A stretch of DNA of 64,000 nucleotides from positions 868,001 to 932,000 of the forward strand of contig CAJXMJ010000001.1 of the NCBI GenBank assembly GCA_913056455.1. Reading direction: 5' to 3'. Shown one piece after another: positions 31,229-43,290 of this stretch. The notes under the pieces are model-generated. The model was not told where the DNA came from. It saw only the letters and a program-made list of their open reading frames with translations, and did not search any database. This DNA comes from an uncultured Fodinibius sp. (GTDB lineage Bacteria > Bacteroidota > Rhodothermia > Balneolales > Balneolaceae). How positions within the stretch are numbered: position 1 is the stretch's first letter; every line of letters begins with the position of its first letter. The translations under genes were made by a program, and so were the position numbers.

Positions 31229-31260
31229 ATCTAACAAATAAACAATCATCTAACAAATAG
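31229..31260 (+). repeat. direct repeat ATCTAACAAATA in the pilin leader
   Basis: Two copies of ATCTAACAAATA stand within the last 45 bases before the pilin start codon, separated by a short spacer reading AACA followed by ATC of the second copy. The leader is purine-poor in G and has no Shine-Dalgarno sequence, consistent with A-rich leaders favouring initiation in this group. Boundaries are approximate to a base or two. Confidence 0.4.
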
Positions 31261-31269
31261 GTAACAACC

Positions 31270-31728
31270 ATGGGACAACAACAACTCTTACTCGTAATAC
31301 TTGTAACGATTATCGTAGGTATCGCTACGGTCGTGGCTATTAACACTTTTTCAGCTGCATCTGAAAGTGCTAACGTAGATGCTGTACGAAGTGATTTACT
31401 TAGTGTTGCAGCGTCAGCACAGCAATATTATATGAAACCAACCGCTCTTGGTGGAGGCGGACAAGAATTTACAGGTATCTCCGTCACAAATCTTGGTGCT
31501 GTACCTGGAGAAAAAGACGCAAGTGCAGGTACAATCACTAATGAAAATGGGACCTATACTTTAGGTGCTGTTGGAACTGATAATTTTATTATGCAGGCTA
31601 CTCCAGCTACCGCAGGTGGTGGAATTCAAATCCGCGTATGTCCTGACGATGCCGTAATGGGAGATTATGCTCCTGATGCTGCTGACGGTTCAGCGGCTAC
31701 TGCACCAGGATCTTGTCCAACAAGCTAG
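31270..31728 (+). CDS. atypical type IV pilin-like protein (MGQQQ family)
   Basis: A 152-residue protein with a pilin layout: an N-terminal hydrophobic helix (about residues 6-26, LLLVILVTIIVGIATVVAIN), an amphipathic continuation ANVDAVRSDLLSVAASAQQYY, and a small Gly/Ala/Thr-rich globular part with two cysteines, Cys124 and Cys149, that could close a C-terminal loop. The N-terminus MGQQQLLL lacks the basic leader, the G-F/M cleavage site and Glu5 of classical prepilins. If a processing site exists it would be after Gly2. I recall similar MGQQQLLL proteins with the LGGGG stretch in other FCB-group genomes, but their assembly is not described to my knowledge. The pilus genes follow directly, and a terminator right after the gene would let it be made in excess. 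Confidence 0.72.
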   Translation: MGQQQLLLVILVTIIVGIATVVAINTFSAASESANVDAVRSDLLSVAASAQQYYMKPTALGGGGQEFTGISVTNLGAVPGEKDASAGTITNENGTYTLGAVGTDNFIMQATPATAGGGIQIRVCPDDAVMGDYAPDAADGSAATAPGSCPTS

Positions 31729-31752
31729 CTTATTTATTAATTTAAGTTACAA

Positions 31753-31785
31753 AAGCTCCTCATTTATTTGAGGGGCTTTTTTTTT
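31753..31785 (+). terminator. terminator between pilin gene and downstream pilus operon
   Basis: The arms AAGCTCCTCA (31753-31762) and TGAGGGGCTT (31769-31778) pair with one wobble and run into nine T residues. It lies 24 bases after the pilin stop and just before the next start. It probably reduces read-through so that pilin RNA exceeds that of the machinery genes. Confidence 0.8.
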
Positions 31786-31802: not shown

Positions 31803-33278
31803 ATGAAAATCTCATCCCGAGAACTTGTTTTGTTAGGCCTTTTGGGAGTGTTGGTGTTTGTCCCCAGCTTGCAGTATGAACGATGGGGCATAGACTATCT
31901 CTATAACCACAAACGCCTCTTCCAAATTGGGTCCTTGTTATTAGCTGGTACAATTCTAATAACTATAAAAACCAATAGAGAAATAGCTGCTCAGTTTATT
32001 CAGCTATATTCACTAAAAGTTAAATTAGCTTTTGCCGTAATAATTTTGCTCGGCGGATTATCTGCCTTTTATGCTGAATTAACGGATTGGGCTTTCTTAG
32101 ATTATTCGCATTACCTCTTAATTTTGGTTATTACTTTCTTTATTGGGGTTATTACTTATCGAGACTCTGATAAATCACAGCTCTACCTGCAAGCAGCTGT
32201 TATTGGTTTTGTTTGTTTTTATTTAGCCAGAGTAGCAGTATTCTATCTCTTATATCATTTTGGGGAAGTTCCGTTATGGCCGGGAGATTTGAATGACAAA
32301 GCATTATTTAGTTTTTCGAATATACGTTTCTTTAATCAAACGCAGACTTGGACCATTCCGATCTTAGCCAGTTTGGGCTGGTTTTATTGGCGATATACCA
32401 AGAATAATCTCTATAGATGGGGTTTAGTAATTCTTATTGCCGGTTGGGGAACCTTGGTTTTTGCATCCGGGGCAAGAGGTACAATCCTTGGAGTTGTGAT
32501 AGGAATACTATTCATCTGGTTTTTCTTGGTTCAAGAAAAGTGGAAGTTTTTCCTCTATCATGCTTCACTTGCAGGTATTTCTATTATAAGTTACAACTTA
32601 TTATTTAGTTACGGTGAAGAAGGTAAGGAAACCGTTTTACGAACAAATAACTTGCGTTCATATTGGCCTGATGTAATCGATAAAATTTTTCAGGAACCCA
32701 TCTTGGGGTACGGTCCCATGCATTATGCTTCAGTTTTGTTAGGCCAACATAATGGCCATCCACACAATTGGTTTCTACAATTTAGTTATGAGTGGGGCCT
32801 CATAGTTGCTATCCTTTTCTTGATGCTGGCTCTTTTGGGTTTATATAATTGCGGAATATATTTAAATGGTATTTTTGATAAAGAGGGTCTTCCAAAAAAG
32901 AAATACTGGGTGCAATTTGGTATCTATTGGTCATTAATCGCCGCTTTTATTCATGGTCTATTTAGTGGTTTAGCAGTCATGCCTTTAAGTCAAACGTGGT
33001 TTGTTTTAATATGTGGTATGGCGATGGGATTATATTTTAATGAAAAAAAGAAGAGGCAAATTCAAGATAATTATGTCAAAGGGACTAAGATATTTTTGGT
33101 ATTCTTGGTTTTGATATCTTTTGTGGGATATGTTAATTGGGCTATTAATAATCCAATTGATAGAAATGAAGTAGATGCCCGGTTTTATCAAGAATCCACT
33201 TCAAGCAGATCATATCCACGTTTTTGGCAACAGGGAAGAATTGGTATTGATCAAATATCGGGTATAGAAGAAAATTGA
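31803..33278 (+). CDS. O-antigen ligase/Wzy_C-family membrane protein, possible pilin O-oligosaccharyltransferase
   Basis: A polytopic membrane protein of 491 residues with ten or more helices and a large loop carrying the Wzy_C signature: RSYWPDVIDKIFQEPILGYG then HNGHPHNWFLQFSYEWG at about residue 315-330. The His-x-His-Asn motif is typical of the WaaL/PglL/Wzy superfamily, which transfers or polymerises lipid-linked glycans on the periplasmic face. Position between the pilin and the assembly genes suggests that the acceptor is the pilin (PglL/TfpO-like), but a WaaL-like or Wzy-like role is equally compatible with sequence. I start at the ATG at 31803; a TTG at 31797 is the alternative. Confidence 0.78.
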   Translation: MKISSRELVLLGLLGVLVFVPSLQYERWGIDYLYNHKRLFQIGSLLLAGTILITIKTNREIAAQFIQLYSLKVKLAFAVIILLGGLSAFYAELTDWAFLDYSHYLLILVITFFIGVITYRDSDKSQLYLQAAVIGFVCFYLARVAVFYLLYHFGEVPLWPGDLNDKALFSFSNIRFFNQTQTWTIPILASLGWFYWRYTKNNLYRWGLVILIAGWGTLVFASGARGTILGVVIGILFIWFFLVQEKWKFFLYHASLAGISIISYNLLFSYGEEGKETVLRTNNLRSYWPDVIDKIFQEPILGYGPMHYASVLLGQHNGHPHNWFLQFSYEWGLIVAILFLMLALLGLYNCGIYLNGIFDKEGLPKKKYWVQFGIYWSLIAAFIHGLFSGLAVMPLSQTWFVLICGMAMGLYFNEKKKRQIQDNYVKGTKIFLVFLVLISFVGYVNWAINNPIDRNEVDARFYQESTSSRSYPRFWQQGRIGIDQISGIEEN

Positions 33279-34867: not shown

Positions 34868-36640
34868 ATGGGAAAAGTAAATACTCGCAGACATATTGGT
34901 GATATCCTGGTAAACAGGAGTATTATTACCCATGATGAGCTCAATGAGGCTCTTGCTATATTACGGGAGGAGCCGGACTCGTCGAATCGCCGCCTGGGTC
35001 AGATTCTTTATCAGGACCTTGGCATCGATCGGCACGATGTGATGAGTGAAATTGCTTCCATATATGCTTTTGAGGAAGTGTTTGGTGATCAAGAGTCCAT
35101 CGATGATGAAGTTATTGAAGAGATTAAATCCCATATTGATGAACTTCCTACTGAAGTAGTGGATGAGTTGGTTCACCAAAAAGCAGTGCCTCTTCGGGAA
35201 AAGCAGAATACATTGACGATTGCGGCTGCCGACCCTTCAGATCCTACGCTCTCGAATATCGTTAATAAGTTAAATTTTAAGCAGCACCAAATTGTCTACT
35301 GCCGATATGAGTTGGTAGAGCAGATTTTAACCCAGGTCTATGAGCAGAAGAACGAGTTTCTGGATCTGCTCGAAGAGATTGAGTATGAAGAGCCTGACTT
35401 AGAGGAAGACACCGAAGAGATAGATGAAGAGGAGATTGATGCAGAAATCAACCAGAGTATGCTCAACTCTCTGGTTGAGGGTTTTCTGGTTGAAGGGGTT
35501 CGCAAGGGGGTAAGTGATATTCATATTGTGCCCTCTGGACCTGCATCAACTGATATCAGATTTCGTATTGACGGGAAGCTGCAGCTCTGGCATCAACAGA
35601 ATAATGTAAAACCGGAAGCTATTTCGGCAGTAGTTAAAGATAAGACACGTAATGTAGACCGCTTTGAGCGTGATGCCTCGCAAGATGGTTTTATTCAGCG
35701 TCAAGTAGATGGACACAACATCCGGTATCGTGTATCTATCATGCCGATGGTAGGAGCACAGTTCGATCGAAAATTCGAGTCCATTGTTATTCGTATTCTT
35801 GATGACCGGGAAGTTATTACAGACTTGAATGTGCTGGGGCTTCAGAAAAAGGCAAAAGAGGATTTTGTAAAAGCAATTGAAAAACCTTCGGGTATTGTCA
35901 TTGTTACGGGGCCTACCGGAAGTGGTAAGTCTACAACCCTTGTTGCCGCCCTTTACTACGTGATTACTCCCGAAGTGAATGTCCTTACGGTAGAGGAACC
36001 TGTTGAATATCTTATCGAAGGGGCCCGCCAGCTTAAAATTGGTACCAATATGACTTTTGATTTGGCGATGCGGGGTATTTTGCGGCACGATCCTGATATT
36101 GTACTCGTGGGTGAGATTCGTGACCTGAAAACAGCTGAGATTGCCATTAAATTGGCGAACACAGGACACCTTACATTTTCCACCCTTCACACCAATGATG
36201 CCCCCAGTGCTATTTCTCGACTCTATAAGATGGGAGTTGAAACATTCCTGATTGCCAATGCCGTTAATCTGATCATGGCTCAGCGTCTTATTCGTACTCT
36301 TTGCAAGCATTGCAAGGAGGAATACAGACCCCACGTTGAAACAGCAAAGGGTATCGGATTTACTGAAGAGGAATACGAGGAAACGACATTCTATAAAGCG
36401 GTTGGGTGTGATAAATGTACCAATGGGTATAAGGGACGTACTGCTATTATGGAAGCTCTTTATTTTGATAAAGAGATTCGTAAAATGATTTTGGAATCGG
36501 GGGATGAGATTAACGAAGCCGCTATTAAGGAATATGCAATGAGTCAGGGAATGCTGAGTTTGCGTGGTTCCGGACGGGAGCGGATCAAGAATGGACTTAC
36601 AACTATTGAAGAAATTGCAGCAATTACAATTGAAGATTAA
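34868..36640 (+). CDS. pilB: PilB/GspE assembly ATPase
   Basis: Hexameric ATPase that drives pilus or pseudopilus extension. Residues 1-150 are the N-terminal GspE/MshEN-like domain (HIGDILVNRSIITHDELNEA), followed by an acidic linker at 165-195. The ATPase core has Walker A GPTGSGKSTT (348-357), the acidic box TVEEPVEYL, Walker B ILRHDPDIVLVGEIRD and the histidine box TFSTLHTND. A tetracysteine zinc site is formed by Cys479, Cys482, Cys514 and Cys517. All catalytic motifs are intact. A cyclic-nucleotide-binding gene follows 92 bases later. Confidence 0.94.
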   Translation: MGKVNTRRHIGDILVNRSIITHDELNEALAILREEPDSSNRRLGQILYQDLGIDRHDVMSEIASIYAFEEVFGDQESIDDEVIEEIKSHIDELPTEVVDELVHQKAVPLREKQNTLTIAAADPSDPTLSNIVNKLNFKQHQIVYCRYELVEQILTQVYEQKNEFLDLLEEIEYEEPDLEEDTEEIDEEEIDAEINQSMLNSLVEGFLVEGVRKGVSDIHIVPSGPASTDIRFRIDGKLQLWHQQNNVKPEAISAVVKDKTRNVDRFERDASQDGFIQRQVDGHNIRYRVSIMPMVGAQFDRKFESIVIRILDDREVITDLNVLGLQKKAKEDFVKAIEKPSGIVIVTGPTGSGKSTTLVAALYYVITPEVNVLTVEEPVEYLIEGARQLKIGTNMTFDLAMRGILRHDPDIVLVGEIRDLKTAEIAIKLANTGHLTFSTLHTNDAPSAISRLYKMGVETFLIANAVNLIMAQRLIRTLCKHCKEEYRPHVETAKGIGFTEEEYEETTFYKAVGCDKCTNGYKGRTAIMEALYFDKEIRKMILESGDEINEAAIKEYAMSQGMLSLRGSGRERIKNGLTTIEEIAAITIED

Positions 36641-36732: not shown

Positions 36733-37236
36733 ATGGCAACGGATAACCATACAGAAAAAGAGGCAGCGCCCGAATATATTCGGCAGTTTTTGAAAGAACC
36801 GCCTTTGTTATTGAGAAATTTTCATTACGAAGATATTATGGAATTTCTGAATTTAGGGATGGAAGAGCGGTTTGTACAGGATGATGTAATTATTAATGAG
36901 GAGGAATATGTTAATTCTGCTTATTTAATTTCGAAGGGCAAGGTGTCTATCTGGAAAGATAATATTCAACTTGCAACTTTGAATAAGGGGAACTTTTTGG
37001 GAGAAACCTTCCTTTTCAGCAAAAATAACAGAATGGCCAAAGTAGTCTCGGAAGGAGACTCACAACTGCTTAAGTTTGAACGTTATGAAGCATTGAACTT
37101 TTTTAGGAAAAAACCCGAAAAATTGTTCAATATTTTCACTCGTAATATTATTGAAATTCAGCAACAGAAGATCAGTAATATGAATGTGCAGTTGCTACAG
37201 CTTAAAAAGCGGCTCTTGGACGATAGTAGCTGGTAA
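36733..37236 (+). CDS. cyclic-nucleotide-binding-domain protein without DNA-binding domain
   Basis: A 167-residue stand-alone cNMP-binding beta-roll: FVQDDVIINEEEYVNSAYLISKGKVSIWKDNIQLATLNKGNFLGE in shorter view YLISKGKVSIWKDN and LNKGNFLGETFLF. The phosphate-binding cassette region reads GNFLGETFLFSKNNRMAKVVS, where the Arg/Ser contacts for cyclic nucleotide are partly preserved (FLGE then RMAKVVS). The C-terminal helix IIEIQQQKISNMNVQLLQLKK looks like a coiled coil; there is no helix-turn-helix. Its place between the two pilus ATPase genes suggests that it tunes motor activity by binding a nucleotide or a partner, which is inference. Confidence 0.8.
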   Translation: MATDNHTEKEAAPEYIRQFLKEPPLLLRNFHYEDIMEFLNLGMEERFVQDDVIINEEEYVNSAYLISKGKVSIWKDNIQLATLNKGNFLGETFLFSKNNRMAKVVSEGDSQLLKFERYEALNFFRKKPEKLFNIFTRNIIEIQQQKISNMNVQLLQLKKRLLDDSSW

Positions 37237-37475: not shown

Positions 37476-38726
37476 ATGGAAGTAGGGGTACAAAAAGATA
37501 AGGTTAAAGAACTAATAAAACCGCTTGCTGCTCAACTTAATGACAGCTTGAAGGGATTGGAACGGCATAGAGAAATAGGAAAAATCATTGACAGTCAAGA
37601 TGATAATACTCGTGCCAAGCTTCGTGATGTGATTGAGGAATTGCTTGAGAAGATGTACAAGAACGAAGCTTCTGATATAGATATCGGAGGCCCCGGTTGT
37701 GGCAATAGGGTTTGGTACCGTATCCACGGCGATAAATCCCCAGATAAAAGCGCCCCCGAATTTAGTCTTATTGAAACTGACTTTTTGCTTCATAATTTAA
37801 TAATGCCCAGCCAAAGGGAGCATTTACTTGAGAATCGTAATTTGGACTTTTCCTATTCTTTGTCAGGTACCGATTCATTATCGGGTGCTCGTCGCTATCG
37901 AGCCGATATGTATTTTGACCTGGAGCATTTAGCATTAAACATGCGTAAAATCGATAACGAAATTCGGCCGTTTAAAGGGTTACAACTCCATCCCGAAGTA
38001 GCAAAAGCGCTTAGCCTCAAGTATTATAAATATGGGATGACACTTGTAACGGGAATCACGGGATCAGGAAAATCGTCAACGCTTGATACAGTAATTGATG
38101 CAAATAACAGGACGGTTGACTCTCATATCGTTATTATTGCTTCTCCGGTAGAGCTTGTTCATGAGCCTAAAAAATCTGTGGTTCGTCATCGTGAGGTTGG
38201 TCGGGATGTCACCTCATTTAAAGAAGGAGCTATACAGGCCTTGCGGCAGGACCCTGATATTATTGTTATTGGGGAGTTACGCGATCCGGAAACTATTATG
38301 ACTGCTCTTGAAATTACAGACTCCGGGCACAAAACTTTCGGAACACTCCACACCAGTTCGGCAATGGAAAGTATCGAGCGTATTCTTGGTGAGGTTCCAC
38401 CCGATGAACAAAATCGTGTACGTACTAGGCTGGCCGATGTCCTCACTTGTGTAATAAGTCAGAAGCTGATACCCAGTCTTGACGGTAAGCGAGTATTGGC
38501 CAAAGAAGTACTTATGGTAACGAGTTCAGTAAAAGCAGCTATCAGGAATAACAATATTAATGAGATTTACCAGATGCTGATGGAGGGTAGCGAACAGGGC
38601 ATGATGACTATGGAACAGGATCTTAAGCGACTCTATAGTCAGGGAAAGATTTCGCAAGAGGAAGCGATAAATAATGCCAATAATAAAAAGCGCTTAAAAC
38701 AGCTTATTTCAGAAACCCAATATTAA
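37476..38726 (+). CDS. pilT: PilT/PilU-like retraction ATPase with atypical acidic box
   Basis: Member of the PilT branch of secretion ATPases, which depolymerise pili. Walker A is GITGSGKSST (193-202), Walker B ALRQDPDIIVIGELRDPETI, and the histidine box GHKTFGTLHTSSAMESIERIL (given here as KTFGTLHTSSAMES). The C-terminal AIRNNNINEIYQMLMEG resembles the AIRNLIRE motif of PilT. Two differences stand out: an extra 50 residues at the N-terminus, and the acidic box reads IIASPVELVHEPKKS where PilT normally has IEDPIE. The gene is likely one transcript with the three following genes (23, 19 and one base between them). Confidence 0.88.
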   Translation: MEVGVQKDKVKELIKPLAAQLNDSLKGLERHREIGKIIDSQDDNTRAKLRDVIEELLEKMYKNEASDIDIGGPGCGNRVWYRIHGDKSPDKSAPEFSLIETDFLLHNLIMPSQREHLLENRNLDFSYSLSGTDSLSGARRYRADMYFDLEHLALNMRKIDNEIRPFKGLQLHPEVAKALSLKYYKYGMTLVTGITGSGKSSTLDTVIDANNRTVDSHIVIIASPVELVHEPKKSVVRHREVGRDVTSFKEGAIQALRQDPDIIVIGELRDPETIMTALEITDSGHKTFGTLHTSSAMESIERILGEVPPDEQNRVRTRLADVLTCVISQKLIPSLDGKRVLAKEVLMVTSSVKAAIRNNNINEIYQMLMEGSEQGMMTMEQDLKRLYSQGKISQEEAINNANNKKRLKQLISETQY

Positions 38727-38749: not shown

Positions 38750-40453
38750 ATGTTTGGAAAAAATGAATATGTTGGTTTAGCAGTACAGGATGACCTCATC
38801 CGCGTGGCAAGGCTACGGGTAGATGGGAATTCAGTTAAAGTGATTAAATTGGATCGTTTTTCCCTGGTAGAAAAGATAGAGGGCCAATCTCAGAATAAAA
38901 ATCTTGAGGCTGATTCCGGTGAAGTCAATGCGTTTGATGAGGAGGAGGATGCGGATTCGATATTTGGGTTAGAAGAAGATGAGGAGAAGTCTAAAGATCT
39001 TGAGGAGGAACTGGATTTATCTGGTTTAGATGAGGAAGAGGGTGAAGATGAGGAGATGGAGCTTGATATGGTGGAAGAAGCCGAAGTTCCTCAGTCCAAT
39101 GAACTTCTTATTTATGATCTTCTTTCTGAGATCAATAGTGAAAAAATTTATTTAGGACTTAATATTCCTGCGGGCCATACTATATTTCAGGTTATCAGGG
39201 ATACTGACTTTTCTGAGGTTAAACAGAAAGATCTTATTGAAGATCTTGAATTTAAACTCGAGTCTATCTACGGTACTCCAAAATCTCCGGATAACTACTC
39301 TTATGAAGTATGGGAAGATGGATCTCTCCTGTTGGGCTCTATTGAGGATGAATCGGTTACTCTAAAGGCCGTAAACAGGGCCCGCGAGCTTTATACGGGA
39401 AAGCTTGCCATACAAAGTGTTATTCCGGACGAAACATCTCTTGTTGGGCTGGTAAGAGCGAACTATGAGCTTGATCCCGACGAAATGACCGGTATTATCC
39501 AGTTTGGAAAGGAGAAATGTCGCGTCGTTTTTATGAAGGGCGAAGAGATATGGCTGGTTTCTCCTATAATTAATGAGGGAACTGAAAAGAAATCCTTCAT
39601 GAATACGGTATTCAGTAAAATACTTTTTCAGCTGGATACTGGGGAAGTACCCAGTTTGGATCGAATACTCCTGGCAAATAATACCAAGGGAAGTGATGCA
39701 GTAGATTTCTTCAAACAGAATTTCCCGGATATTCATGTGGAAAATCTGTCGTTGAAAGAGGAGTTTATTGATAGTGAAAGTGTAGACCCTTCCAGTATTC
39801 CGTCCTTTACGACTGCTATTGGTTCGGCATTAGCAGCATCTGGGGCAATGGATGATGTTTTTCCGGATCTGTCATTTGTTCCTAAATATGTCGAAGATCG
39901 TCAGAAGATTTTCCAGCTGCAATGGCACGGGATGCTGATCCTATTTTTGATATTTTTAACTCCCATTACGTTTAACTATTTCTATACGCAGAATGTCCAA
40001 CAGATCAATTCATATGAGAGTGACTTAACTCAAATGAATTCTCAGCTTGAACAATTAGAACCTCTTGTAAATGAAGTAGATGTTTTACAAGAGGATTTAT
40101 CGGTATTAAAAGAGAAGTTGACGATGCTTGATACCCTTACGCGAGGCAGTAAGGAGTGGTCAGCCAAATTTGATTTGCTTAATGAAGGTATTCGATCGGT
40201 GGGTAACACTTGGATTACCTCTTTTTCTGAATCCGGAGATGGCACTTCTATTCAGGGATACACTTTGTATAGAAACAGAATTCCTCGAATCGTTAATATT
40301 TTTGATGAAGCAACGCTGCAAAGTGTCAACAATGAAGAAATTCGTGAACAACAGGTATACACATTTTCAATACTAATACAATCGTTTGCCCAATCTGATT
40401 CTATTTATTCACCATCATCCCCAGAGGAAGTTAAAAATCTGATAGGTAAATAA
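38750..40453 (+). CDS. PilM-PilN fusion with acidic insertion
   Basis: One chain appears to combine two pilus alignment proteins. The N-terminal part begins FGKNEYVGLAVQDDLIRVA, like the actin-fold PilM, and is interrupted at residues 50-113 by a very acidic Glu/Asp-rich insert. The actin-like part resumes to about residue 370. DLSFVPKYVEDRQ then stands where PilN has its short PilM-binding N-terminal motif (usually NLLP). A membrane helix (392-412), a coiled coil (415-465) and a small alpha-beta domain (470-545) complete a PilN layout. In most systems PilM and PilN are separate and bind through that peptide. The domain boundaries are read by eye. Confidence 0.78.
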   Translation: MFGKNEYVGLAVQDDLIRVARLRVDGNSVKVIKLDRFSLVEKIEGQSQNKNLEADSGEVNAFDEEEDADSIFGLEEDEEKSKDLEEELDLSGLDEEEGEDEEMELDMVEEAEVPQSNELLIYDLLSEINSEKIYLGLNIPAGHTIFQVIRDTDFSEVKQKDLIEDLEFKLESIYGTPKSPDNYSYEVWEDGSLLLGSIEDESVTLKAVNRARELYTGKLAIQSVIPDETSLVGLVRANYELDPDEMTGIIQFGKEKCRVVFMKGEEIWLVSPIINEGTEKKSFMNTVFSKILFQLDTGEVPSLDRILLANNTKGSDAVDFFKQNFPDIHVENLSLKEEFIDSESVDPSSIPSFTTAIGSALAASGAMDDVFPDLSFVPKYVEDRQKIFQLQWHGMLILFLIFLTPITFNYFYTQNVQQINSYESDLTQMNSQLEQLEPLVNEVDVLQEDLSVLKEKLTMLDTLTRGSKEWSAKFDLLNEGIRSVGNTWITSFSESGDGTSIQGYTLYRNRIPRIVNIFDEATLQSVNNEEIREQQVYTFSILIQSFAQSDSIYSPSSPEEVKNLIGK

Positions 40454-40472: not shown

Positions 40473-41351
40473 ATGTCCTACGGTGTACGAAATACAATTA
40501 TTCTTCTCGTCGTCTTAACTACTTTTATAGGGGGCGGATGGAGTTATATTTATTTTTATCAGCAGCCAAAACTGGAAGAACTGGAGCAAAATGTTGAACA
40601 AACGCGGCAAGAATTAAATCAGAAGCAGCAGAAGGCTAATCGATTGCCGACACTTGAAAACCAGTTTAAGGAGGCTACTAAATTTTTTAATAATTATAAC
40701 AAAGGCTTATATCCCAATAGTAATGAAGACAATGTATATGATTTTTTAGACAGGGTAAGCACTGGATCGGCATATACGGAGTTTGCTTTTAATTTTTCTG
40801 ATTCGACAGCCTACAATCAGTATGGCGTTATTTCAATGGAGGTTACGGGCCAGGGCTATTATCGTAACTTCATAAACTTTGTCCGACAAATTGAGTTAAG
40901 CAAACCGTTAAATAAAGTTGGACAGGTTAGTGTAAATCCTATTAATGAGCTCGATTCCTACGGAAAGGTTAATTACCAGTTTTCTCTGCAGAGTTTTTAT
41001 GACCGTGTAAAATTATTGGGAGAAACAGATTTAAACATTAATAATAACTTACTTGGATCAGTTTATAACCCATTTTACCCCTTTATACGGTCAGTTAAAG
41101 ACAACGAGGAAAATCTCGTAAATGTTGAAAACAGTGAGCTCCTGGCAATAAGTTCAGATAAGGTGTTTTTACTGGATCAACAGGGAATAATGCAGCGACT
41201 TTCTGAAGGAGATGAAGTATATCTCGGAAGACTTTCATCAATAGATCTTGATGAAGGAACCGCTTCGTTTACCTTGAATAAGGGTGGAATTGTTGAGCGA
41301 ATAACCTTGCAGGTTAATAATGATGAAGATGAAAATGAAAGCAGTAACTAA
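40473..41351 (+). CDS. PilO-like protein with C-terminal PilP-like domain
   Basis: A single membrane helix (residues 8-27), a coiled coil (30-70, LEELEQNVEQTRQELNQKQ) and an alpha-beta domain (85-180) match PilO, which pairs with PilN in the alignment complex. After residue 195 the sequence NPFYPFIRSV leads to a small beta domain (218-281, ELLAISSDKVFLLDQQGIMQ and LSEGDEVYLGRLSSID) like the secretin-docking domain of PilP/GspC. So PilO and PilP functions seem to be carried by one chain. It lies 19 bases after the PilM-PilN gene and ends one base before the secretin start codon. Confidence 0.75.
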   Translation: MSYGVRNTIILLVVLTTFIGGGWSYIYFYQQPKLEELEQNVEQTRQELNQKQQKANRLPTLENQFKEATKFFNNYNKGLYPNSNEDNVYDFLDRVSTGSAYTEFAFNFSDSTAYNQYGVISMEVTGQGYYRNFINFVRQIELSKPLNKVGQVSVNPINELDSYGKVNYQFSLQSFYDRVKLLGETDLNINNNLLGSVYNPFYPFIRSVKDNEENLVNVENSELLAISSDKVFLLDQQGIMQRLSEGDEVYLGRLSSIDLDEGTASFTLNKGGIVERITLQVNNDEDENESSN

Positions 41352-41352
41352 T

Positions 41353-43290
41353 ATGAAATCTTTTAGATACCACAAAATTACCTTTTTTACACTGGCACTA
41401 CTATTTATTGCTATTGGCAGTGTAAATAGTCAAAATCGGGATAATCTGCCTGCAGAATTCAGAGAGTACACAAACCCCGAGGAAATTGTTCGCTTTGACA
41501 GAACTACGTCATTTGCCCGTGCTGTTGATGTGATAAATGAATTTTCACAAGATTTTCGTGGTAAAGCGGTTATCAATCGAACAGATATTGAGGGAGAAAT
41601 TGGTATTTCCGTACCGCCGATGCATTGGATGGATGCGTTGAAACTTATTTTACGTGTAAAAGAGCTACACTTGATTGACAAAAATGAATTCTTTGAAATA
41701 GTCACCCGAGAATCTATAGAAGCCGAAGCGGAAGGACAGGCTGCCCCTCAAACAGCCGGTGGTGGCGGACAGGGTGAAGGACCCGTTGCTACGACCCAAA
41801 CACACGAAGTAAGAATAAACGCTATCTTTTTTGAAGGGAATCGGCGTGCCCTTCAGGAAATCGGGGTAGATTGGTCCACGATCTCTGAAAATGTTCCCGA
41901 ATCTGTGCTTGGAGGTGGACAAGGGGGCGGCCAAGGTGGCGGAGGCCAATCCGGTGGTGGCCAAGGAGGTCAAGGTGGAGGACAAATTCCGAGCTCCGAA
42001 TTTGATGGACCATTTGTACAAGTAAATTCAAAAGGGGCACAGAACGTGTCTCAGGATGTGTTTAGTGCATTAGTTAATGTCGGTGAAATCGGAAATACCG
42101 GCATTGATGTGCAGGCGTTATTTAGTGCATTTGAGGCTGATAATCTCGGTGAAATTCTTGCTTCCCCCACAGTAAAAGTGATGGATGGTCAAGAAGGTAA
42201 CATCCAGGTAGGACAGGATTTTTCAATTAAGCAGCGCGATATTGCTGGTAATGTTGTTGAAAATTTCTTCTCGGTTGGTACTATCCTTACAGTTACTCCG
42301 CAAGTTATTACTCAGCAAGATACGACTTTTATACATCTTAATATTGATGCTGAACGATCATCAGCACAACCTGATCCGGTAAGTACTATTATTAATAAGC
42401 AGGAAGCGACGACGCAGGCACTGTTGTTGGACGGAGAAGCAACGGTTATTGCGGGATTATATAGGACCGAGAAAGCGAATGTTCGACGGGGTATACCAAT
42501 TTTAAAAGATCTTCCGCCATGGTTCTTTGGCCTGCGATATCTTTTTGGATACGAGTCTCATGATTATCAAATGAGGGAGCTTGTAATTTTAATACAAGCA
42601 TCCTTGGAGCCTACTATACCGGAACGGTATGGTACAGAGGATTTCAAGGGTAAATATGAGGTTCTGCAAGACGAGCGAGAACGTATGCAGGAAGAGGCTT
42701 CAAAAGGTCAAGAAATAATGAATCGTGAAAAGGATGAAGACCTTCAGGAAATGTTTGACGGGGAGCCGGAGGAAGAAAATCCTGAACCTCAGGAAAATGA
42801 GGAGGAGAAGAAGGCTGAACCGGAGCCTCAAACTGAGAAAAAAGATTCACCCGGTGAAAAAGAATCTGAGAATGTTGAAGCCGATTCGTTAGATGAGGAA
42901 AATAACCAACAGCAAGAACCGGAAACTATTAAGGATCCGGAAGTAAAGACTAAAAAAGTCGAACTCAATCTTGGTGGAGAAGCTGATAATCAAGAAAATG
43001 TCTCTGAGCCTGAAGAAACGACAGTAGGTAATGGTAATAAAGCCCAAAATAGCGAAAGTCTATCCACCTACTATATCGTCGGTGGTTCTTTTCAGGTATT
43101 GGAAAATGCTGAAAAGCATCAACAGGAACTTGCTGAGGAAGGGTTTGATGCCTCTATTGTTAAAATGCAGGACTCAGATATTAACTTGGTTACGTATAAT
43201 GGATTTGATAATCTGAATAGTGCTGAAAAAGCACTTGCTGATATTCGACAATATCAGAATTCAGAGGCCTGGATATATAAAGCAAAATAA
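41353..43290 (+). CDS. pilQ: PilQ/GspD-type secretin with C-terminal SPOR domain
   Basis: Outer-membrane pore of the pilus/secretion machine. With the start at 41353 (MKSFRYHKITFF, a signal peptide ending near Ala/Ser-Gln) the protein has 645 residues. An N0/STN-like domain is at 45-118, a Gly/Gln-rich insert at 186-211, and the secretin domain at about 230-420, with the family end VIAGLYRTEKANVRRGIPIL and DLPPWFFGLRYLFG. An acidic, disordered Glu/Pro-rich linker (440-560) leads to a SPOR domain (571-643, STYYIVGGSFQVLENAEKHQ). SPOR domains bind denuded glycan strands, so the secretin probably anchors to peptidoglycan itself. Only one clear N-domain precedes the secretin core, fewer than in classical GspD. 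Confidence 0.9.
   Translation: MKSFRYHKITFFTLALLFIAIGSVNSQNRDNLPAEFREYTNPEEIVRFDRTTSFARAVDVINEFSQDFRGKAVINRTDIEGEIGISVPPMHWMDALKLILRVKELHLIDKNEFFEIVTRESIEAEAEGQAAPQTAGGGGQGEGPVATTQTHEVRINAIFFEGNRRALQEIGVDWSTISENVPESVLGGGQGGGQGGGGQSGGGQGGQGGGQIPSSEFDGPFVQVNSKGAQNVSQDVFSALVNVGEIGNTGIDVQALFSAFEADNLGEILASPTVKVMDGQEGNIQVGQDFSIKQRDIAGNVVENFFSVGTILTVTPQVITQQDTTFIHLNIDAERSSAQPDPVSTIINKQEATTQALLLDGEATVIAGLYRTEKANVRRGIPILKDLPPWFFGLRYLFGYESHDYQMRELVILIQASLEPTIPERYGTEDFKGKYEVLQDERERMQEEASKGQEIMNREKDEDLQEMFDGEPEEENPEPQENEEEKKAEPEPQTEKKDSPGEKESENVEADSLDEENNQQQEPETIKDPEVKTKKVELNLGGEADNQENVSEPEETTVGNGNKAQNSESLSTYYIVGGSFQVLENAEKHQQELAEEGFDASIVKMQDSDINLVTYNGFDNLNSAEKALADIRQYQNSEAWIYKAK

Follow-up and report, generated by a model that had tools for sequence, protein, structure and literature searches.

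The gene at the head of a type IV pilus locus in an uncultured Fodinibius sp. very probably encodes a subunit (likely the major pilin) in a lineage of type IV pili assembled without prepilin processing. Judging from sequence data, we give this reading a probability of about 0.83. An unprocessed pilin in a type IV pilus machine had been proposed in the original prediction for the window, that is, the whole 64,000-nucleotide stretch of DNA analyzed here, and this proposal is supported by the missing prepilin peptidase, the impossibility of encoding a leader, the conserved start of the protein, its predicted fold and the operon in which the gene resides. In many members of the Balneola, Rhodothermus and Ignavibacteria groups, type IV pili appear to be assembled from a leaderless subunit, mostly in genomes that do not encode the enzyme that cuts leaders.

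The pilin gene, its start and its predicted fold

The protein begins with MGQQQLLLVIL (opening sequence MGQQQLLLVILVTIIVGIATVVAINTF); Gln3-Gln5 precede a hydrophobic stretch, and the first charged residue is Glu32. As originally described, it has no basic leader, no Gly/Ala cleavage site following a leader and no Glu5, with Gln at position 5 instead. A leader cannot be encoded in this gene because an in-frame TAG lies three codons 5' of the ATG. The intervening codons (ACC, ACA and GTA) include no start codon, and the ribosome-binding-like site that overlaps the stop is located seven bases upstream of the ATG (Table 1). The homologues show the same arrangement of upstream stop and ribosome-binding-like site, and in 127 of 150 an in-frame stop occurs no more than six codons upstream of the start. 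The N_methyl profile (PF07963) gave no match to the window pilin in a Pfam search with a limit of E 0.1, and no named family was identified for it, either by NCBIfam at E ≤ 0.01 or by Pfam over the cut-off; the MacB-like periplasmic core domain (PF12704) scored 15.4 bits, below the cut-off of 27.

Of 59 close relatives, 42 carry the pilin, which also occurs in hundreds of public contigs. The original prediction proposed a search for MGQQQ homologues, and a census of all 175 homologues in the fetched loci, unfiltered for the start motif, yielded MGQQQ in 152, MGTQQ in 10, MGSQQ in 4 and MGNQQ in 1, the rarer starts being MANKE (3), MGNRE (1), MGQKE (1) and three others. MGQQQ also opens 43 of the 44 pilins in loci fetched without motif seeding (L001-L030), and the MG-x-Q-Q start is conserved across several phyla. 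The family alignment was filtered on MGQQQ-like starts, and its invariant columns were left out of the evidence. All but one of the 175 homologues have Gly, Ala or Ser as residue 2; the exception starts with MMAQQ and may have its true start at the second Met.

The start codon is ATG in 142 of 145 homologues. Gly2 is encoded by GGA (70), GGT (63), GGG (7) or GGC (5), and Gln3 by CAA (93) or CAG (52). Given that synonymous codons vary freely at these positions, the start residues are under selection at the protein level. A mis-called start was ruled out by the close upstream stops in most homologues, together with the conservation of the start in the face of this synonymous variation.

Five paralogues carry Lys or Arg at position 4 and Glu at position 5 (MANKE, MGNRE and MGQKE starts; loci L061, L062, L135, L021 and L145), and four of these were retrieved close behind an MGQQQ copy. 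The genome under study encodes a second leaderless pilin of 127 aa (MGQQQLLLAILVTILVG; G000:C7:40460-40825, corresponding to L132:3961-4344), which lies outside any pilus operon, with a DEAD-box helicase gene on one side and genes for a multihaem cytochrome and a molybdopterin/Fe-S oxidoreductase-like protein on the other.

The alignment-based AlphaFold2 model, which derives from the family alignment itself, has a pLDDT of 93.7 and consists of a helix (residues 2-55) followed by a beta head with strands between residues 81 and 133, that is, the lollipop fold of a hydrophobic N-terminal helix and a beta-sheet head. For an Ignavibacteria homologue, modelling from the sequence alone gave a poor result (pLDDT 55), which was not used. 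Foldseek alone found no significant match in the PDB (best pilin E 0.38). When the Foldseek candidates were aligned with VIA-align, rows 1 to 17 were all type IV pilins, with Z scores from 9.7 to 4.7, including Thermus PilA4 (9.7, 120 residues), Neisseria PilV (9.2), Pseudomonas PilE (8.4) and full-length PAK pilin (7.0), and a profile search of PDB sequences placed a Geobacter pilin on top (E 0.001). The model and its closest folds bear out the pilin shape that had been read from the sequence. The small Cys-closed head of the original prediction fares less well: the window protein does contain two Cys residues, but such a head is not a family trait, because two or more Cys are present in only 28 of 145 homologues.

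The register of the N-terminal helix was derived in two ways. The profile and most head-based structural alignments indicate an offset of three relative to mature Geobacter PilA, pairing Gly17 with Gly14, Asn25 with the kink residue Pro22 and Phe27 with Phe24, so that the window pilin is extended N-terminally by three residues (by two once Met is removed), with Leu8 at the position of Glu5. Counted from Met1, Gln5 takes the place of Glu5, where the five rare paralogues have Glu, a possible hint at the register. The earlier suggestion of Gln at the packing positions is thus compatible with the count from Met1, but not with the shifted alignments.

Cleavage after Gly2 had been offered as the other course of events. 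Trimming after Gly2 (or Gln3) by an unrecognised peptidase would expose a Gln that could cyclise to pyroglutamate, losing the charge for which Glu5 compensates in classical pilins. In its favor, Gly2 matches the type of residue after which classical prepilins are cut (PMC10191384), Gln3-Gln5 hardly vary, and the mature +1 position falls at about Gln4 in the head-based structural register. An N-terminal Gln is nevertheless dispensable, considering that 15 of 175 homologues have Thr, Ser or Asn at position 3 and that Lys/Glu variants occur at positions 4-5, and A24 peptidases are absent from most carrier genomes (see below). In addition, we know of no precedent for a two-residue leader without Lys or Arg, and we consider trimming quite improbable. 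The unprocessed subunit is much better supported and is favored because most of the carrier genomes lack any A24 peptidase.

The pilus operon and its platform protein

The pilin is the first gene of a same-strand cluster that runs to a PilQ-like secretin (Table 1) and, in line with its original placement, opens a conserved operon. The order pilin(s)-PilC-PilB-PilT-PilMN-PilO-PilQ recurs in loci of Balneolota, Ignavibacteria and KSB1, and a Calditrichota locus contains pilin-PilC-PilB-PilT. Two or more pilin copies often head these loci, with two to five tandem copies in several genomes. The type IVa machine components, namely, extension ATPase, platform protein, secretin, PilT and PilM/N/O, are all encoded at the window locus, PilM/N being weakly recognised; the prepilin peptidase is the component not found in the genome. 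PilB matched TIGR02538 with E 6e-131, yet fell under the equivalog cut-off.

Table 1. Features of the pilus locus, in window coordinates
Feature	Position	Strand	Evidence
In-frame stop TAG (31258-31260) overlapping AGGT ribosome-binding-like site (31259-31262)	31258..31262	+	Read from sequence
Leaderless type IV pilin-like subunit, 152 aa	31270..31728	+	ORF, family alignment, AlphaFold, fold matches
Terminator-like hairpin, 12 pairs and T run, just 3' of pilin	31751..31780	+	Consensus scan
Wzy_C (PF04932) O-antigen-ligase-like membrane protein	31803..33278	+	Pfam E 2.6e-12
PilC platform protein, 447 aa	33366..34709	+	PF00482 E 9.8e-29, two repeats; own clade in tree
PilB extension ATPase with MshEN domain	34868..36640	+	Pfam T2SSE E 3.8e-101; MshEN
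cNMP-binding domain protein, inside operon	36733..37236	+	PF00027; synteny
PilT-family retraction ATPase	37476..38726	+	TIGR01420 E 7.8e-95, 318.0 bits against cut-off of 319.1
PilM/PilN-like inner-membrane protein	38750..40453	+	Weak PF05137 (PilN) match, E 0.0019, below cut-off; operon position
PilO	40473..41351	+	PF04350 E 8.4e-07, above cut-off
PilQ-like secretin with C-terminal SPOR domain	41320..43290	+	PF00263 E 3.1e-30; SPOR E 6.4e-06

The hairpin behind the pilin gene would allow transcription of the pilin apart from the machinery genes, which fits a subunit made in excess. The Wzy_C gene, located between the pilin and PilC, is adjacent mainly in the genus of the window; judged by its position, the product is possibly a pilin O-oligosaccharyltransferase (TfpO/PglL-like) or an ordinary ligase. 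The cNMP-binding gene was seen in loci of Balneolales and was not detected in those of Ignavibacteria or KSB1; its presence within the operon suggests nucleotide control of the pilus. The SPOR domain of the secretin is preceded by a long acidic linker and could anchor the pore to peptidoglycan that is septal or denuded.

The leaderless pilins are accompanied by a longer form of PilC. Most PilC proteins encoded in the leaderless loci measure 441-470 aa, compared to 366-386 aa for five classical ones. In the tree, a branch with 100/100 support separates them from classical PilC, even where both occur in one genome (sister genome G009). Because the tree is unrooted and has long branches, we make no claim as to the direction of the change. 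The window PilC extends further at its N-terminus than classical GspF/PilC proteins from sister genomes, and this N-terminal part resembles two short repeats (residues ~1-50 and 51-95), whereas classical PilC has one.

Distribution of prepilin peptidases and classical prepilins

The original prediction noted that no prepilin peptidase was encoded in the window, and this absence extends to the whole genome (3.28 Mb, 95.9% complete). A profile search with the A24 prepilin peptidase family (PF01478) gave no matches at E ≤ 1 in the entire genome, and the same profile produced a match in 12 of 14 control genomes, covering both bacterial and archaeal enzymes. The A24 protein of G009 was also used as a query and found no relative at E ≤ 10 in the other 11 members of the genus, including the genome under study. 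In G009 itself, a classical prepilin gene (MKWIQSIKKEEGFTLPELL) directly adjoins the A24 gene, and both belong to a separate locus (L166) with its own secretin and PilC.

A count of genomes lacking the peptidase had likewise been proposed. Among 196 genomes of the same class, the pilin was detected in 136 and A24 in 20 at E ≤ 0.01, in 16 of these over the cut-off and in the other four as sub-threshold matches only. Even with all weak A24 matches taken as present, 121 of the 136 pilin carriers had no A24 match, and 111 of these 121 encode PilC. The pilin and A24 are distributed independently (pilin in 13 of 16 genomes with A24 and in 123 of 180 without; Fisher P 0.40), whereas A24 tracks the classical N_methyl prepilins, being present in 16 of 26 genomes with such a prepilin versus 0 of 170 without (P 4e-17); conversely, an N_methyl prepilin was found in all 16 genomes with A24 over the cut-off and in 10 of the 180 others. 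PilC tracks the pilin (126 of 136 carriers versus 10 of 60 non-carriers; P 2e-26). Many of the mismatches, that is, the 10 of 136 pilin carriers without a PilC match and the 10 PilC carriers without the pilin, are fragmented drafts.

In a second class sample, taken around an Ignavibacteria genome, the pilin is present in 60 of 109 genomes and A24 in five, all of which are pilin carriers, leaving 55 of the 60 carriers without A24. The two class samples together contain 176 carriers without a detectable prepilin peptidase. Chance loss of the peptidase from one draft genome was ruled out by these 121 and 55 carriers: one gene could possibly be missing from a single assembly of 95.9% completeness, but not from 176 at once. 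In other phyla, a PilD-like A24 gene was found in 17 of the 38 carrier genomes reached through loci, so that coexistence is more common than in the class samples, and absence does not exclude processing in those carriers.

The subunit might instead be processed by a general protease, or by an A24 enzyme so divergent that the profile missed it. Absence by profile is negative evidence, and the four class genomes with sub-threshold matches only are in keeping with this explanation. The profile, however, recognised 12 of the 14 controls as well as a typical A24 gene beside a classical prepilin in a congeneric sister genome, the query from that close relative retrieved nothing from the other 11 members, and there is no leader to cleave. 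Such an enzyme is very improbable.

A conventional major pilin encoded elsewhere in the genome was looked for as well, and N_methyl had no match over the cut-off in the genome under study. This result bears on the possibility that the window protein is a bitopic inner-membrane accessory of the pilus machine, such as a minor subunit, primer or regulator, with the major pilin encoded elsewhere. Its role in the filament is, after all, deduced from sequence; matches to the MacB periplasmic core, below the cut-off, span the helix and head in 32 of 70 family members (best E 7e-6); and tandem copies cannot all be the major pilin. On the other hand, no other pilin candidate was found in the genome, classical prepilins are absent from 106 pilin carriers that have PilC but no A24, and the gene heads the operon, is followed by a terminator-like hairpin of its own and encodes a predicted pilin fold. 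We hold an accessory role to be very improbable, and a leaderless pilin remains the preferred interpretation of the window protein.

Proposed assembly and relationship to known type IV pili

The gene start of the leaderless pilin would correspond to the start of a classical mature pilin to within three residues. The uncharged N-terminal helix would insert into the inner membrane such that the head faces the periplasm and the N-terminus stays cytoplasmic, with the caveat that the N-terminus has no Lys or Arg to enforce this orientation. Gly, Ala or Ser at residue 2 permits removal of Met1 by methionine aminopeptidase; as residue 2 is nearly always one of these, Met1 is probably removed. From the composition of the operon, PilC and PilB would extract and polymerise the subunit, the fibre would exit through the PilQ secretin, and PilT would retract it. 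A polar Gln cap may stand in for the arrangement of Glu5 and the N-terminal amine. In classical systems, the basic leader must come off before the helix joins the fibre; here, this leader is never made, so that an A24 peptidase would have nothing to cut.

With the type IVa major pilins (PilA/PilE; Thermus PilA4, Geobacter PilA and Pseudomonas PAK), the window family shares a long helix with a hydrophobic first half, a beta-sheet head, matching Gly14/Phe24 helix positions, and co-encoded PilB, PilC, PilT, PilM/N, PilO and PilQ. Unlike these pilins, the window family has no leader and no Glu5, the helix extends N-terminally by as many as three additional residues, with the M-G-x-Q-Q start, and the peptidase is absent in most carriers. 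The classical systems with a prepilin and A24, which are a minority in the class, likewise combine pilin, secretin, PilM/N, PilO and PilC in one locus, but the example in G009 has a prepilin with a leader and Glu5, A24 next door and a PilC of 380 aa that belongs to a separate clade. MSHA and other type IV filament loci also lack a peptidase gene of their own; in those cases, the enzyme is encoded elsewhere in the genome (PMC6668835), whereas none was detected in the window genome and the subunit is leaderless.

To our knowledge, the prepilin cleavage step is universal in the textbook view. Type IV pilins are defined by a hydrophilic class III signal peptide that ends in Gly or Ala and is cut by a dedicated prepilin peptidase, and Glu5 is common among them but not universal (PMC10191384). 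Nanoarchaeota are the one exception among the phyla examined to the rule that prepilin-encoding species have the peptidase as well (PMC4471445), loci without a peptidase gene have been explained by an enzyme encoded elsewhere, and the proposed ancestral machines include the peptidase (PMC6668835). The window protein is predicted to work like a type IV pilin, but it has neither the leader nor the peptidase required by the formal definition. No description of leaderless or unprocessed pilins, of PilD-free pilus machines or of pili of these phyla was found in the open-access literature covered by the search.

It is likely that these pilins represent a type IV pilus lineage spanning several phyla of the FCB group, in which the subunits are made mature and served by their own type of platform protein, and in which filament assembly requires neither cleavage nor N-methylation nor a Glu5 salt bridge. 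Pilin searches and counts of type IV filaments make use of cleavable leaders (PMC10191384, PMC4471445). If the reading proposed here is correct, the major subunit would escape standard pilin-finding methods in hundreds of genomes, and the presence of the peptidase would not be a valid marker of pilus capacity. The roles of the leader, N-methylation and Glu5 would become open to direct comparison, and these bacteria would provide a natural system for studying how a subunit is extracted from the membrane without a processing step.
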